35,201 nt of DNA, taken from the NCBI GenBank assembly GCA_026996605.1, contig JALWLE010000126.1, positions 1-35,201 of the forward strand, read 5' to 3'. This stretch comes from Flavobacteriales bacterium. GTDB taxonomy: Bacteria; Bacteroidota; Bacteroidia; Flavobacteriales; Flavobacteriaceae. Shown piece by piece: positions 4,878-26,551 of the stretch (positions are counted from its first letter, which is position 1; each line of letters opens with the position of its first letter). A model generated the notes under the pieces. The model ran no database searches. It was not told the origin of the DNA and saw nothing but the letters and a program-made list of their open reading frames with translations. The translations under genes were made by a program, and so were the position numbers.

Positions 4878-6173
4878 CTAAAGTTTACCGGTAAACCTTA
4901 AAATCAAATAGCCAATCAATCCGGCAGTTAAAGAACCGATTATAATCCCGATTTTGGCGGAATTGATCAAAAATTCGTTGCCTTGAAAAGCCAAATTGGC
5001 AATAAAAATGGACATTGTAAATCCGATGCCTGCTATGGCGCCAATCCCGATGATGTGTTTATAATTTAAATCGTCGGGTAGTTTGATAAGTTTTAATTTT
5101 ACGCCTGCAAATGTAAATAAACTGATTCCGGATAATTTTCCGATAAAAAGTGCCAAGGCAATATTCATTACCAAAGCAGTGTTTAACTCTAAACCAGATG
5201 TAAAGTTAATGCCGGCGTTGGCAAAAGCAAAAACCGGTAAAATAACATAAGCGATTAAGCTGTGTAATTTCTCTTCCAAATATTGTAAGGGCGAACGCAC
5301 TTCGGCTGTGGCGTTGCCTAAATAATTGATGCAATTCATTTCGTCCTTATTCAAGATGTAAGCCGGTTTCGGATTGGTTTTCGTCAACAAATTTTGACTG
5401 ACATAATTGAGTTTTTCAACATAAGCCCCTATATTTATTCTCTTTTTAATAGGGATTGTAAAAGCCAGCAAGACACCGGCAATTGTAGGATGGATACCGG
5501 ATTTTAAAAATAAAATCCAGACAATGATCGCTATAAATAAGCCCATATCAATCCGAAATGATTTTTTGTGATAAAACCAAGCCAATAAGCCGATTAATCC
5601 CAAGGCATAAGCTAATAATTCCCAATAAATATGTTGACTGTAAAATAGGGCAATCACCAGAACGGCAGCCAAATCGTCGATAATGGCAAAAGCCGTTAAA
5701 AAGATTTTCAAACTGAGTGGCACCCGTTTGCCAAGTAACATTAAAACGGCAAGTGCAAAGGCGATATCCGTTGCCATTGGGATTCCCCATGCTTTGCTTG
5801 TATCGGGCTGCTGATTGATCATCAAAAACAAAACAATGGGCATAATGACGCCACCCAAAGCCGCCATAAACGGAAAAGCCGCTTTTTTTAAACTATTTAG
5901 TTCGCCAATAAGCAATTCTCTTTTTAGTTCCAGCCCTATCAGAAAGAAAAAAATAGCCATTAAACCGTCGTTAATCCATAAGATTAAGGGTTTTTTCAAT
6001 TCGAAATCACCAAAAGAAAACCCAATAGGAAATTGTTTTATGGTTAAATACACATCACTGAAAGAAGTATTTGCCATAATTAAGGCGAGAATGGTTGCGC
6101 CAAATAATAAGAAACCGGCTAAACTTTCGGCTTTGATAAATTTTTGAAAAGGACTGATAATTTTACGAATCAC
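4878..6173 (-). CDS. nhaA: Na+/H+ antiporter NhaA
   Basis: A 431-residue polytopic inner-membrane protein. It contains the NhaA hallmarks: an early LWINDGLMAIFFFLIGLELK segment (about residues 65-84), ATDIAFAL with Asp136, and AIIDDLAAV with the paired Asp166 and Asp167 that bind Na+ and H+ in the characterised E. coli protein. A C-terminal GIGAIAGIGFTMSIF stretch also matches. The role is electrogenic sodium export and pH homeostasis. The start is GTG at 6171-6173: an in-frame stop lies in the AACC-rich repeat just upstream, no ATG lies between, and the next Met falls inside the first membrane helix. It lies 84 bp downstream of the adaptor gene in the same direction, so read-through from the efflux operon is possible. 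Confidence 0.95.
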   Translation of the reverse strand: MIRKIISPFQKFIKAESLAGFLLFGATILALIMANTSFSDVYLTIKQFPIGFSFGDFELKKPLILWINDGLMAIFFFLIGLELKRELLIGELNSLKKAAFPFMAALGGVIMPIVLFLMINQQPDTSKAWGIPMATDIAFALAVLMLLGKRVPLSLKIFLTAFAIIDDLAAVLVIALFYSQHIYWELLAYALGLIGLLAWFYHKKSFRIDMGLFIAIIVWILFLKSGIHPTIAGVLLAFTIPIKKRINIGAYVEKLNYVSQNLLTKTNPKPAYILNKDEMNCINYLGNATAEVRSPLQYLEEKLHSLIAYVILPVFAFANAGINFTSGLELNTALVMNIALALFIGKLSGISLFTFAGVKLKLIKLPDDLNYKHIIGIGAIAGIGFTMSIFIANLAFQGNEFLINSAKIGIIIGSLTAGLIGYLILRFTGKL

Positions 6174-7610: not shown

Positions 7611-10600
7611 TTATTCATCGACAAAATATTGATATTCAATCACTTTTTGATTATAGTTTTTTAAATCGTCTAAGTATTTGAGTTGTATATCGGTTGCTAT
7701 TTGCAAATTTTGCAGGTATTGATAATAGTTGATTTCGCCGGCTGTATAGCTTTTTTGCGCCATGTCATAAATTTTGCCGGCTAATTTTTGTCCGGTTTTT
7801 TCGTAATAATTAATACGTTCGCGATATTTGGCAATATCGTTTTGTAAATTTTGCTGTTTGGTTGCCAAGTTTTGTTGTTGATAGGCTTGGCGCAGCTCGG
7901 CAGCTTGATATTGCAAACCGGCTTGTTTAATTTTGGCTTTTTGTACCCCAAAAAATAAGGGAATGCTGATGCCGACCGAAAAACCCAAATAAGATTCATT
8001 GGCACTAAAATCCGTTTTACCTTGATACAATTCAAAATTAAAGTCGGGTAAAAGTTTGTTTTTTTCAAGCTTTTGTTTGGCTTTGGCAATTTTAGTGGAT
8101 TGTTCCGCTAATTTTAAATAGGGGGTTACCACTTCCGGATTAATTTTAAAATCCAAAGCTTGCAGGTTTTGTTCGGCTACATCATAATGCAATTCTTTTG
8201 CGCCCAGTAGCAAATTAAAACTTTGCTGCAAACTCATTAAGCTTTTTTGCATCTGCGCTATTTCGGTTAAAATAGCTTGATATTTGGCATCGGCAGTATA
8301 TTTTTCAAGCTCTGTGCTTTCGCCGGTTTTTAGTTTTAGAGCTGCTGCTTTGGCAAATTTTTGATATTTGTTTTTAAGTTCTTCAAATATTTTCAGCCGT
8401 TCTTTGACATATAAAATATCTTCATAAGTCATTGCCACAGCTTGTTTTAAGGCTTGTTGTCGAATACTGAGTTTTAATTGTGTTGTCCGGTATTCTTCGT
8501 TAAATAATTTTTTTTGAGCCATATAAACACCCGGAAAATCGAGCTGTTGTTGTATGCCGATAATCTTTAACGGATTGCCGTTCAGACCGGTATTATTTTC
8601 ATCAGTGGCATAATAGACATCGGTTTTAGGCAGATTAAAAGCCGTTTTTATTTGACTTTTACTTGCCAAGACTTCTTTATCCCCGGCAAGTATGTTGCTG
8701 TTATTTTCTAAACTGATTGTTATGGCTTCTTGTAAACTGACTTGCTGTTTTTGTGCTTTAAGAGCCTGTCCTGTTAATATAATCAGCGGTAAAACGAGCC
8801 AGAGAAAAGTTTTTCGTTTAAATGATTTCACTTTCAAAGGTTTATCAAACATAATGTATAAAATTGGTAATACAAACAAGGTTAAAAAGGTTGAAGTAAA
8901 CAAACCACCTATCACAACCGTTGCCAAAGGACGTTGCACTTCGGCACCGGCAGATTGCGAGAATGCCATAGGGAAAAAGCCCAATGCGGCTGCGGCAGCT
9001 GTCAATAACACCGGACGCAAGCGCTCGGTTGTACCTTTTACAACCAAGTCTTTTAGATTATCGTATGTGTGTTTTTTCAACTCTTTGTAATGTTCTATCA
9101 ACACGATTCCGTTTAATACGGCAATACCAAATAAAGCTATAAAACCGACACCTGCCGAGATACTAAACGGCATATCGCGCAACCAAAGCAGAAAAACACC
9201 GCCTATTGCTGCCAACGGAATAGCCGTATAGACCATAATAGCTTCTTTGATGGAATGAAAAGCAAAGTGCAACAGTATGAAAATCAACAATAAAGAAATA
9301 GGAATAGCAATAGAAAGGCGTTTTTTAGCAGCGCGTAAGTTTTCAAACTGACCACCGTAAGTTACGTAATAGCCTGCGGGCAATTTTAATTTTTGATCGA
9401 TGATTTTTTGCACATCTTTGACGACACTTTCCAAGTCTCTATCACGCACATTTACCCCAATAACGATGCGGCGTTTGGTATCGTCACGCGATATTTTTGC
9501 CGGTCCTTTGTCATAAGTAACGTGTGCCACTTCGCTCAGCGGAATACTATTACCGTTGGGAAGCAAAACACTGATGTTTTTAACATCGTTCAAGTCTTTC
9601 TTATATTTCTGATTATACCGCACAACTAAATCAAACTTTTTTTCGCCTTCAAAAATATCACCGGCTTTGAGTCCGGCAAAAGCGGCTGCCACTACTTGAT
9701 TTATTTCATCGACATTGAGTCCGTATTTAGCAAGATGGTTTTTATCATAACTGATTTTGATTTGCGGTAGCCCTTCGACTTTTTCAACACTGATATCGGC
9801 AGCGCCGGGGACTTTTTCTATCATTTTTTTGACTTGTTGGGCTTTACGGTTTAAGATGTTTAGGTCTTCACCGTAGATTTTGATAGCCAAGTCGGAACGC
9901 ACCCCGGTAATCAATTCGTTAAAACGCATTTCTATGGGTTGGGTAAATTCGTATTCAATGCCCGGAATCACCTGCAAAGCTTTTTTAAACTGATTAGCCA
10001 ATTCATCTTTGGTATCGGCTTTTTTCCAATATTTTTTGTCCTTTAATTTGATGATAATATCCGAATCTTCCATTGACATCGGGTCGGTTGGCACTTCTGC
10101 CGCACCTATCCGGCTGACCACTTGTTGCACTTCATCGGGAAATTTATCCAATAAGATTTTCTCGATTTTCGTGGTGGTTTCAATGGTTTTACCTAGCGAT
10201 GTTCCGGTTTTAAGCACCGGTTGAATCACAAAATCGCCTTCATCGAGTGTCGGCACAAATTCGCCGCCCATTTTGCCAAAGGTATAAATAGTGATAATCA
10301 ATAAGATAACAGATATGCTTAAAACAGCTTTTTTATATTTTAGTGCTTGATATAGTGCCGGTTGATACCAAGATTTTAATTTGTTAATCAAGCGGGTTGA
10401 AAAATTATTCGGATTTTTTAAAGGTTTTAAAAATACCGAAGACACTACCGGCACATAGGTCAGTCCGAGTATCATAGCACCGATAAGTGCAAATGAAAAA
10501 CTCAATGCCATTGGTCTAAACATTTTGCCTTCCACGCCGGTTAAACTCAAAATCGGAATAAACACAATAAGAATGATAATCTGTCCGAAAATAGCGGCGC

Positions 10601-11951
10601 CCATCATCTTTTTGGTGCTTTTGTAAGTGATTTGATCCACAACATCTTGGCGTTCGTCCTTAGGCAAGGAACTGACACGTTTCCATTTTAAAAGCAGTTG
10701 CAAACTGATAAATTCAACAATAATCACCGCCCCGTCAATGATGATCCCGAAATCGATAGCACCCAAACTCATCAAGTTGGCATCGATACCAAACAAATAC
10801 ATCATGGATATGGTAAACAATAAGGATAATGGTATAACCGAAGCAATGATTAGTCCTGAACGGAAATTACCGAGTAACAGAAAAACAATACCCAATACGA
10901 TGATAAAGCCCAAAATCAAATTTTCGGCTATAGTAAATGTGGTTTTTCCGACTAGTTCGCCACGTTCTAAAAACGGATTGATATAAACGCCTTCGGGTAA
11001 ATGTTTTTGCACTTCGGCAACTCTTTCGTGAACGGCTTCGGTAACTTTTTTTGAGTTGGCACCTTTGAGCATCATAATTTGTCCCATTACTTTTTCGCCT
11101 TCACCGTTTCCGGTAATGGCACCGAAACGATTGGCATGTCCAAATTGCACGGTGGCGATATCCCGTATCAAAACAGGCACGCCATTGACATTTTTAACGA
11201 CAATATTGTTGATATCTTCCATAGTTTTGGCTTGTCCGTCGGCACGAATAAAATAACTTTCATTATTTTTTTCGATATAACTGCCGCCTGCTATGGCATT
11301 GTTTTTTTCAAGCGCATTATAAATTTCGGTAATATTGACGTGCATCGACCGCAATTGGTCCGGATTGACCGCAACTTCGTATTGTTTCAAATAACCGCCC
11401 CAAGTATTGACTTCGACTACACCCGGAATACCGGATAGCTGTCGCTTGACAATCCAATCTTGTATGGTGCGCAAATCCGTTATGGAATACCGGTCTTTGT
11501 AACCGGGTTTGACATCTAATATATATTGATAAATTTCACCCAAACCGGTAGTGATAGGTCCCATAAAAGGCGTACCGAATTTTTTAGGAATCATTTCTTC
11601 GGCATTTTTGAGTTTTTCGGCTATCAATTGGCGCGGTAAATAGGTGCCTATATCATCGTCAAATACCACCGTTACCACCGATAATCCGAATTTTGAAACC
11701 GACCGGATTTCTTTAACCCCGGGCAAATTTGACAATTCCAATTCGATAGGATATGTAATAAATTGTTCTACATCTTGGGTTGATAAATCTTGTGATGTGG
11801 TAATGACCTGCACTTGGTTGTTGGTAATATCCGGCACCGCACCAATGGGAATTTGTGTCAAGGTATAAACACCGTAACCAATCCAAGTCAAGGTAAATAA
11901 AGCAACAATGAGTTTATTGTTTAAGCTGAATTGAATAATTTTGTTTAACAT
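7611..11951 (-). CDS. heavy-metal RND efflux pump (CzcA-like) fused to a TolC-family outer-membrane factor
   Basis: A 1446-residue protein. Residues 1-1040 form a complete HME-RND proton antiporter: an N-terminal helix, two large periplasmic loops, and two six-helix bundles. TM4 carries DFGIIIDGAVIIVE (residues 400-413) with Asp400 and Asp406, the proton-relay motif. The TQPIEMRFNEL segment (670-680) resembles CzcA-type divalent-cation pumps rather than the TMPI-type methionine site of CusA. After the last helix a basic stretch leads into a hydrophobic segment (about 1047-1064) ending in ALKAQ, which looks like a retained signal peptide. Residues 1070-1446 are TolC-like with long coiled-coil helices. 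Pump and outer-membrane channel are therefore one reading frame. The likely role is export of Zn, Co, Cd or Ni across both membranes; the metal is inferred. Confidence 0.93.
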   Translation of the reverse strand: MLNKIIQFSLNNKLIVALFTLTWIGYGVYTLTQIPIGAVPDITNNQVQVITTSQDLSTQDVEQFITYPIELELSNLPGVKEIRSVSKFGLSVVTVVFDDDIGTYLPRQLIAEKLKNAEEMIPKKFGTPFMGPITTGLGEIYQYILDVKPGYKDRYSITDLRTIQDWIVKRQLSGIPGVVEVNTWGGYLKQYEVAVNPDQLRSMHVNITEIYNALEKNNAIAGGSYIEKNNESYFIRADGQAKTMEDINNIVVKNVNGVPVLIRDIATVQFGHANRFGAITGNGEGEKVMGQIMMLKGANSKKVTEAVHERVAEVQKHLPEGVYINPFLERGELVGKTTFTIAENLILGFIIVLGIVFLLLGNFRSGLIIASVIPLSLLFTISMMYLFGIDANLMSLGAIDFGIIIDGAVIIVEFISLQLLLKWKRVSSLPKDERQDVVDQITYKSTKKMMGAAIFGQIIILIVFIPILSLTGVEGKMFRPMALSFSFALIGAMILGLTYVPVVSSVFLKPLKNPNNFSTRLINKLKSWYQPALYQALKYKKAVLSISVILLIITIYTFGKMGGEFVPTLDEGDFVIQPVLKTGTSLGKTIETTTKIEKILLDKFPDEVQQVVSRIGAAEVPTDPMSMEDSDIIIKLKDKKYWKKADTKDELANQFKKALQVIPGIEYEFTQPIEMRFNELITGVRSDLAIKIYGEDLNILNRKAQQVKKMIEKVPGAADISVEKVEGLPQIKISYDKNHLAKYGLNVDEINQVVAAAFAGLKAGDIFEGEKKFDLVVRYNQKYKKDLNDVKNISVLLPNGNSIPLSEVAHVTYDKGPAKISRDDTKRRIVIGVNVRDRDLESVVKDVQKIIDQKLKLPAGYYVTYGGQFENLRAAKKRLSIAIPISLLLIFILLHFAFHSIKEAIMVYTAIPLAAIGGVFLLWLRDMPFSISAGVGFIALFGIAVLNGIVLIEHYKELKKHTYDNLKDLVVKGTTERLRPVLLTAAAAALGFFPMAFSQSAGAEVQRPLATVVIGGLFTSTFLTLFVLPILYIMFDKPLKVKSFKRKTFLWLVLPLIILTGQALKAQKQQVSLQEAITISLENNSNILAGDKEVLASKSQIKTAFNLPKTDVYYATDENNTGLNGNPLKIIGIQQQLDFPGVYMAQKKLFNEEYRTTQLKLSIRQQALKQAVAMTYEDILYVKERLKIFEELKNKYQKFAKAAALKLKTGESTELEKYTADAKYQAILTEIAQMQKSLMSLQQSFNLLLGAKELHYDVAEQNLQALDFKINPEVVTPYLKLAEQSTKIAKAKQKLEKNKLLPDFNFELYQGKTDFSANESYLGFSVGISIPLFFGVQKAKIKQAGLQYQAAELRQAYQQQNLATKQQNLQNDIAKYRERINYYEKTGQKLAGKIYDMAQKSYTAGEINYYQYLQNLQIATDIQLKYLDDLKNYNQKVIEYQYFVDE

Positions 11952-25183: not shown

Positions 25184-26551
25184 ATGAAAAAAATGAAAAA
25201 AATAAGTCTTTTAATATTACTGATTCTTTCCTTGTCTGCTTGTGAGAAAGAATTTATAGATAAAAACGAGGTAACTGAAAAGGCTGCCTACGAAACACCT
25301 GAAGCTTATCAAGGTATTGTTTTGGGTATGACCAAAATATTTACCACTTCAACCTTAAAAAATATCATTAAAGGTCCCGGCTTAACTGCCAAAGAATTCG
25401 GTCGAGCCAATACATATGTTTCAACAACCCAATTATCAAACGGTGGTAAAGGCATTACTGATGATAATCCCACAGTCAATGGTATTTGGTCAGGTTTACA
25501 TCGTAGTCGTGGCATAGCCGAAAAAATCTTATCTAATATTGATAAAGTTACTTTCGTTAATGCTGACGAAGGCATAGCATATAAAGCTTATGCTAAGTTT
25601 TTTAAAGGGTTGACCATTGGTTATATGTCACAATACTGGGAAAAAGTTACTTTGGATAATGATGCTGAAAACAATGCTCAATTTGTCGATAGATTAGACG
25701 GATACCAAACCGCTATTGATTATTTAAATGATGCTGAACAAAGTTTTACAAACAACGCGAATGCCACAGCTTTAATCAATGGTTTGATTTCTTCAAATTT
25801 TTCCGTGTTAGATGTAATTCATATCTTAAAAGCCCGATATTATATGGAATTAGGACAATACCAAGAAGCATATGATGAAGCCAATGCTGTTGATTTAACA
25901 ACAAAATCACAATGGGATTATGATGGTGGAGCTATTAAAAATCCGATATATGCTCAAATATTAGATCCGGGCGCTTCATTAAATTATTTACCTTTAGACC
26001 AACTGGGAATGTTATCAGTACACACACTAGATGTCGGTGACAATCGTGTAAACTTTTATTTGGAAAATACTGTTGTCATGCAAGATATTGATTGTGGCTA
26101 TGATTTATACAATCCTGTAGGTTTCTGGTCAACCGATTCATCACCTATTCCTGTATATTTAACCGGAGAAGTCATGTTGCTTAAAGCAGAAGCCAAAGCG
26201 CGGTTAAATGGTGCAGCCAACTTGGCAGAAGCCGTTAATTTAATTAATGATGTAAGAACCAAAACATCGAGCGCTGATCCTTTTGGAGTTGGTGCTTCAT
26301 TAGGTGTATGGACAGGAAATGCTACAAATCAGCAAGACGTTTTAGATGAAATCTATAGAAATTATGCAGCCGAATTATATTTAGAAGGACTGAGATTTCC
26401 CATACATAGACGATTTTTTCCTAATTACCTAGATAATATCGATTGGAATCAAGTGAATCGTTGCGGTTTAGAACGTGTAAACAATTTCTATCCTTATCCG
26501 GATAGTGAACGCGCCAACAACCCGAATTGTCCACCTAATCCCGAATTTTAA
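25184..26551 (+). CDS. RagB/SusD family nutrient-uptake lipoprotein
   Basis: A 455-residue lipoprotein. The signal ends in LSLSA-Cys20, followed by EKEFID, as in other surface-exposed Bacteroidota lipoproteins. The SusD-type helical scaffold is visible: VNGIWSGLHRSRGIAEKIL (about residues 99-117), AYAKFFKGLTIGYMSQYW with a TPR-like pattern, and a C-terminal RNYAAELYLEGLRF motif (about 400-413). SusD proteins act as a substrate-capturing lid on the SusC barrel. The gene starts 3 bp after susC and ends at a terminator, so the operon has just these two genes. It is slightly shorter than the usual 500-600 residues but complete. The ligand is unknown; the upstream GH16-like enzyme suggests a beta-glucan-type polymer, as inference only. 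Confidence 0.95.
   Translation: MKKMKKISLLILLILSLSACEKEFIDKNEVTEKAAYETPEAYQGIVLGMTKIFTTSTLKNIIKGPGLTAKEFGRANTYVSTTQLSNGGKGITDDNPTVNGIWSGLHRSRGIAEKILSNIDKVTFVNADEGIAYKAYAKFFKGLTIGYMSQYWEKVTLDNDAENNAQFVDRLDGYQTAIDYLNDAEQSFTNNANATALINGLISSNFSVLDVIHILKARYYMELGQYQEAYDEANAVDLTTKSQWDYDGGAIKNPIYAQILDPGASLNYLPLDQLGMLSVHTLDVGDNRVNFYLENTVVMQDIDCGYDLYNPVGFWSTDSSPIPVYLTGEVMLLKAEAKARLNGAANLAEAVNLINDVRTKTSSADPFGVGASLGVWTGNATNQQDVLDEIYRNYAAELYLEGLRFPIHRRFFPNYLDNIDWNQVNRCGLERVNNFYPYPDSERANNPNCPPNPEF

Follow-up and report, generated by a model that had tools for sequence, protein, structure and literature searches.

A CusA-type efflux pump and its outer-membrane channel encoded as one probable polyprotein with an internal signal peptide in Bacteroidota

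Introduction

In a tripartite efflux system the pump of the inner membrane and the channel of the outer membrane must be present in matching numbers, and it is not obvious by what means cells achieve this. The question arises at a locus in a 35,201-nucleotide stretch of DNA from a Flavobacteriales bacterium (NCBI GenBank assembly GCA_026996605.1, contig JALWLE010000126.1, positions 1 to 35,201; the window), where a resistance-nodulation-division (RND) pump and a TolC-like channel are read as one chain. An earlier sequence-only reading, which gave no strand, proposed this fusion, described a signal-peptide-like junction and left it open whether signal peptidase cuts there to release a free channel or a tethered protein spans both membranes. 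Comparison of relatives carries the question further and largely answers it: the fused gene very probably encodes a polyprotein that is cut after A1066. We infer the cut itself, and favour cutting over tethering because of the invariance of the site, the split relatives nested among fused ones and the short reach of an uncut chain.

Organization of the fused gene

The gene is an uninterrupted 1446-residue open reading frame (ORF) on the minus strand (11951..7611, with its stop codon at 7611-7613), and forward frame 1 of the same stretch is stop-rich; the proposed fusion is thus borne out as one unbroken frame. Residues 1-1036 (8844..11951, minus strand) form an RND pump domain of the CusA/CzcA (HME-RND) family, as indicated by Pfam (ACR_tran, residues 5-1035), by NCBIfam TIGR00914 (CusA/CzcA), which matches residues 1-1036 at 1175.6 bits against a cut-off of 701.45, and by relatives in the PDB, of which ZneA (4k0e, E 9.3e-191) and then CusA (3t51/3k07, E 3.1e-182) are the nearest solved structures by sequence. 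The full-length model match above cut-off is accompanied by a CusB/HlyD-type adaptor gene alongside, as found in members of this family. A DFGI(I/V)DGA stretch is common to the window pump and ZneA, which is CzcA-like, and the substrate class of the pump is probably of the divalent-metal type.

The C-terminal part, residues 1067-1446 (7614..8753, minus strand), is assigned as a mature TolC/CusC-type outer-membrane channel domain from Pfam OEP, an AlphaFold model and fold matching. OEP matches in two stretches of the fused protein, the best at 1277-1443. The model of residues 1034-1446 (mean predicted local distance difference test score 90.4) is composed of long helices and two β hairpins, with strands at model positions 78-88, 94-104, 270-279 and 288-296 that make up a four-strand barrel contribution. 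Its best fold match in the PDB is CusC (3pik, template modelling score 0.76 by query length), and OprM and TolC were also matched, so that both the two OEP repeats and the TolC fold of an outer-membrane factor are present.

Between the two domains lies a putative internal signal peptide, residues 1037-1066 (8754..8843, minus strand), delimited from a 62-sequence profile. It begins with a basic n-region from K1037 to K1047 that has six lysine or arginine residues in 11 positions, continues with a hydrophobic core of about 11 residues (about F1049-L1059) and a short polar c-region, and ends in ALKA-Q1067, as the sequence-only reading had described for its basic and hydrophobic segment ending in ALKAQ. 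The proposed signal peptidase I site, A1066/Q1067 (8751..8756, minus strand), rests on the conservation of [A/S/G]-Q, the invariant Q and the Q-rule for Bacteroidetes signal peptides, as given in the available text of PMC5837995.

Conservation of the junction

Of 77 related loci scanned, 61 have an ORF of at least 1300 residues through both domains and were aligned with the window (62 rows). The other 16 loci were excluded because they run off a contig end (L051, L057, L064, L065, L077 and L085), are frame-broken (L059, L071, L074 and L079) or split (L053, L066, L067, L069 and L073), or look chimeric (L056). At 9010-9283 in the last of these, GC-rich unrelated sequence follows query residue 1002, which is probably a chimeric contig end.

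All 62 fused proteins have [A/S/G]-Q at the aligned place, with Q at +1 throughout. The -1 residue is A in 44, S in 16 and G in two, and the -3 residue is solely A, G, L, V, S, I, T or M. Sites were picked by looking for [A/G/S/C]-Q at most four residues away from the aligned Q, a rule on which the +1 count depends; in a MAFFT alignment of the channel part made without any motif rule (62 sequences, 457 columns), Q1067 is one of five invariant columns, and identity to the window is as low as 19%. Positions -15 to -6 are free of charge in every row, high mean hydropathy extends over -15 to -7, with a drop at -6, and 15-21 residues separate the last charge before the core from the site. The 12 residues ending at that charge have a net charge of at least +2 in 62/62, and a hydrophobic core is present in each row, the lowest best-10-residue mean hydropathy being 1.69 (L038). 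The features of a Q-rule signal peptidase I substrate, namely a basic n-region, a hydrophobic core, a small -1 residue and Q at +1, are therefore found in all 62. No row has Cys at +1, which rules out a lipoprotein form of the fused channel within this set.

As a control, the motif [AVSTGLIM]-x-[AGS]-Q was sought behind other hydrophobic segments. It stands behind the junction segment in 62/62 rows, behind the tested pump segments in 0, 0, 9, 0, 1, 1, 0, 0, 0, 6 and 0 of 62, and behind one channel segment in 9/62; behind the first transmembrane helix (TM1), which is uncut and likewise runs from inside to outside, it occurs in 1/61. Because Q1067 is invariant in a divergent alignment and the motif is rare behind other hydrophobic segments, the junction motif is, as judged from these comparisons, more than chance.

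A second set came from 198 Bacteroidota genomes, drawn evenly across the phylum, in which TIGR00914 matches were listed with the best scores first (more existed) and fused rows were counted by hand from open frames above 1400 residues. The matches listed include at least 63 fused genes besides the window's own, in keeping with the earlier expectation that long forms occur in other Bacteroidota. One further candidate, a 1777-residue open frame in G135, was rejected as a fused form: its surplus comes from an open frame that lies upstream in GC-rich DNA, and its pump ends normally. All 63 listed junctions were read, and each has a hydrophobic core (lowest best-10-residue mean 2.08). [A/S/G]-Q follows the core in 61 of these 63 (60 by script and L112 by eye; the first site of L130 is LMA-Q). 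The length of the linker between the twelfth transmembrane helix (TM12) and the core varies, as seen in L132 and L134 compared with L117, while core and site persist, as would be expected if core and site are what matters.

One survey gene (L168) is the same as L075 of the first set, which leaves 124 distinct junction genes, 122 with [A/S/G]-Q and all 124 with a hydrophobic core. Among them no homologue has the non-hydrophobic, motif-less junction that the sequence-only reading named as evidence against itself, and the two genes without Q are still hydrophobic there; the conservation it had asked about among relatives thus holds in 62/62 of the first set and in 61/63 of the matches listed in the second. 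The two exceptions, L123 and L127, are fused pumps of two families outside the window's class. Both retain the hydrophobic core, and L123 has C after SAEA, a possible lipoprotein form and the sole such candidate in the 63 rows.

Split relatives

A quick IQ-TREE run on 94 pump domains, with SH-aLRT support only, gave a tree that was rooted at its midpoint; L018, which lacks the N-terminus, and L099 and L102, with wrong or over-extended ORF frames, were kept out. One clade of 79 rows (support 100) holds 73 fused and 6 split pumps, and the fused label needs at least six changes on the tree. Three of the nested split pumps, L067, L111 and L073, are each followed by a channel gene that belongs to the same family (hmmsearch E 2e-98, 5e-89 and 7e-84, respectively). 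Stop and start overlap as ATGA in L111 and L073, and the overlap is 11 bases in L067; each free channel has an ordinary signal peptide ending in AQ where the junction would be. L067 and L073 are metagenome drafts in which a base error is possible, and both, together with L066, are on the long-branch list, so that their placement is less sure. For L053, L069 and L066 no channel was found within the fetched locus.

Outside the tree, a complete Hymenobacter BRD128 plasmid carries split genes with an annotated 37-base overlap, the signal peptide of the free channel ending in YGQ, and the survey loci L181-L183 have a separate channel gene behind the pump with a signal peptide ending in AQ. Together with the nested split pumps, these genes indicate that the physical link between pump and channel has been lost more than once, with the signal peptide kept wherever a channel gene follows. 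Since four of the seven split pump-channel pairs overlap, coupled synthesis, rather than a tether, may be what selection keeps. The other three pairs count against coupling as a general rule: L181, L182 and L183 are non-overlapping, with gaps of 245, 16 and 10 bases, respectively, to the first ATG considered.

In L181 and L182, which belong to the window's family, the N-terminal region of the separate channel has an odd repeated stretch (TFANFA...LRTLRLIAFLL). It resembles a translated repetitive element at the junction and may have broken the fusion there.

Reach of an uncut chain

In the AlphaFold model, the hydrophobic helix, predicted with low confidence, ends near residue 1063, and the first mature strand, 1069-1071, begins two residues past the site. 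According to the available text of PMC8277102, the periplasmic α-barrel of such channels is about 100 Å long with the equatorial domain at mid-barrel, and the N-terminal membrane anchor of OprM originates at the equatorial domain. By our estimate an uncut chain would thus have about five residues, less than 20 Å, with which to span the periplasmic part of the pump, the adaptor zone and half of the channel. A tether this short would not fit the usual assembly; we judge it implausible because about five residues between helix end and first strand cannot reach mid-channel, an argument made from the secondary structure of the model and not from a coordinate measurement.

Q-rule and host enzymes

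Bochtler and colleagues reported that Q is the exposed N-terminal residue of most signal peptidase I substrates in Bacteroidetes, with a species mean of 71% and a share above 48% in 332 of 334 species, and that the +1 Q was detected as pyroglutamate in mass-spectrometry data from five species (PMC5837995). The rule is described there as not consistently common to related groups. In the available main text of that article RND and TolC do not appear, and the word polyprotein occurs once, on gingipains.

The window's genome has a gene of the signal peptidase I family (PF10502, contig C22) and one of the plant-type glutaminyl cyclase family (PF05096, contig C17, E 1.3e-93), so that, going by family matches, the host would have both enzymes. 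Free TolC-type channels are encoded there as well, with AQ at the end of their signal peptides. On contig C69 (G000, L004/L005), an unfused TolC-type channel gene lies beside an apparent second CusA-type pump, which is truncated where the retrieved region ends. If the bond is cut, the invariance of Q precisely at +1 has an explanation, and we see none for it if the bond stays uncut.

Alternative explanations

The junction could instead stay uncut and serve as a thirteenth transmembrane helix, leaving one chain across both membranes. Such a tethered protein would account for a hydrophobic segment behind positive charges in 62/62 rows and for the single frame that pump and channel share in 61 of 77 relatives. 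A plain helix, however, gives no reason for the invariant Q and the small -1 residues, split relatives do without the link, and about five residues between 1063 and 1069 are too few to reach mid-channel under the geometry given in the available text of PMC8277102. We consider tethering very improbable, and much the same holds for internal initiation, in which ribosomes would also start within the gene and produce a separate channel that has a signal peptide at its own N-terminus. In 37 of the 62 rows an in-frame ATG is indeed found in the interval from TM12 to the core, with GTG or TTG only in a further 15, and the window has an ATG at residue 1034. Against this, 10 rows have no ATG, GTG or TTG in that interval, and Met occupies 24 of 930 positions from -30 to -16 (2.6%, compared with a background of 2.7%), with none in 40 of the 62 rows. 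There is thus no conserved internal start, though individual species may use one; it would supplement cutting rather than replace it, because the full-length chain still bears the site. A base error joining two adjacent genes would be conceivable in the window's draft genome of 149 contigs, and some draft relatives (L059, L071, L074 and L079) are indeed frame-broken. The same uninterrupted frame in 61 of 77 related loci and in complete plasmids, and the intact closest relatives L009 and L010, contradict such an artefact, which we reject as having next to no probability.

Cleavage after A1066 is the reading that we retain, with several points weighing against it in addition to the internal ATG codons just described. 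The window's own site, with L at -3 and K at -2, is weaker than A-x-A, and L112 has F at -3 (FKA-Q). Two of the 63 listed survey junctions carry no Q at the site, L123 reading SAEA-C and L127 LYG-K. The structural model covers the channel part alone, as a monomer, with its first 30 residues at low confidence. Pyroglutamate on inner-membrane proteins is untested, according to the authors of the mass-spectrometry work (PMC5837995, available text).

Neighbouring genes, plasmids and database annotation

The next gene downstream of the fused gene (P0002; 6258..7508, minus strand) encodes a periplasmic adaptor of the CusB/HlyD type, matched by Pfam HlyD_D23 and TIGR01730 RND_mfp, and the N-terminal part of its sequence has a lipoprotein-like LSISC motif. 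After the adaptor, on the same strand, Pfam identifies an NhaA Na+/H+ antiporter gene (4878-6173, minus strand). Elsewhere in the window, no Pfam family was matched at E 1e-10 by a 455-residue ORF at 25184-26551 (plus strand), which directly follows the gene of a TonB-dependent receptor.

Among the 5000 best-scoring plasmid records, 45 match 80% or more of the query at a single location. The 30 records listed are from Bacteroidota genera, as given by taxonomy lines for three; the remaining genera we take to be Bacteroidota. Annotation in these 30 names a pump alone in 26 and CusA plus TolC in one, and three have no feature. Complete plasmids from Haliscomenobacter hydrossis and Chryseobacterium balustinum carry the fused frame, as does a Petrimonas record titled complete genome (L060). 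Cultured environmental bacteria with the fused gene include Flavobacterium stagni (L016) and Runella slithyformis. A search of open-licence literature, covering titles and the beginnings of abstracts, found no description of a pump-channel fusion or its processing.

Discussion

We read the fused gene as encoding an RND pump of the divalent-metal type and, behind it in the same frame, the secretory precursor of the pump's own outer-membrane channel. In the RND fold the chain is back in the cytoplasm after TM12. From there the K/R-rich stretch 1037-1047 and the short core would act as an internal signal peptide, sending residues 1067 onwards through Sec. Signal peptidase I would then cut between A1066 and Q1067, and the new N-terminal glutamine would be cyclised to pyroglutamate. 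The freed channel is expected to trimerise, insert in the outer membrane and rejoin the pump through the separate adaptor, and, barring any trimming, the signal sequence would stay on the cut pump as its thirteenth helix, at the C-terminus. The likely benefit would be equal synthesis of pump and channel, for which the four overlapping split relatives speak and the three non-overlapping ones do not.

For the wider lineage, we think it likely that pump and channel of these Bacteroidota systems are synthesised as a single polyprotein and that signal peptidase I separates them at an internal Q-rule site, which would fix their ratio and leave the pump with a C-terminal thirteenth helix. The arrangement would be old, spread over many families and repeatedly split, some of the split genes still overlapping. 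If this is true, a large bacterial group sets its pump/channel ratio by a cellular polyprotein that is cut by the general signal peptidase. Database names that read only RND transporter conceal an outer-membrane channel, with consequences for proteomics and for predictions of localisation.

The window's system resembles CusCBA/CzcCBA systems (E. coli CusA-CusC; ZneA) in its TIGR00914 pump, its CusC-like channel fold and the adaptor gene that follows. In those systems pump and channel are separate genes, and CusC is a lipoprotein, whereas the window's channel has a signal-peptidase-I-type site inside the pump gene. The rhizobial FbcH protein is a cytochrome b-c1 polyprotein that is cut by signal peptidase. 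It is like the window's fused protein in that one gene encodes a membrane protein, then an internal signal peptide and then a partner that is exported; it differs in belonging to a respiratory complex and in that its partner stays in the inner membrane, while the window's partner would go to the outer membrane. Long forms named CusA/CzcA family heavy metal efflux RND transporter in databases are the same fused protein, and their annotations mention neither the channel nor a processing site. The signal peptidase I substrates described in the available text of PMC5837995 likewise have a hydrophobic core, a small -1 residue and Q at +1; their signal peptides are N-terminal, whereas that of the window is internal and follows 12 transmembrane helices. 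On the best reading, known parts, namely an HME-RND pump, a CusC-like channel and a Q-rule signal peptide, stand here in a new arrangement, as a bacterial polyprotein whose signal peptide lies inside the chain.

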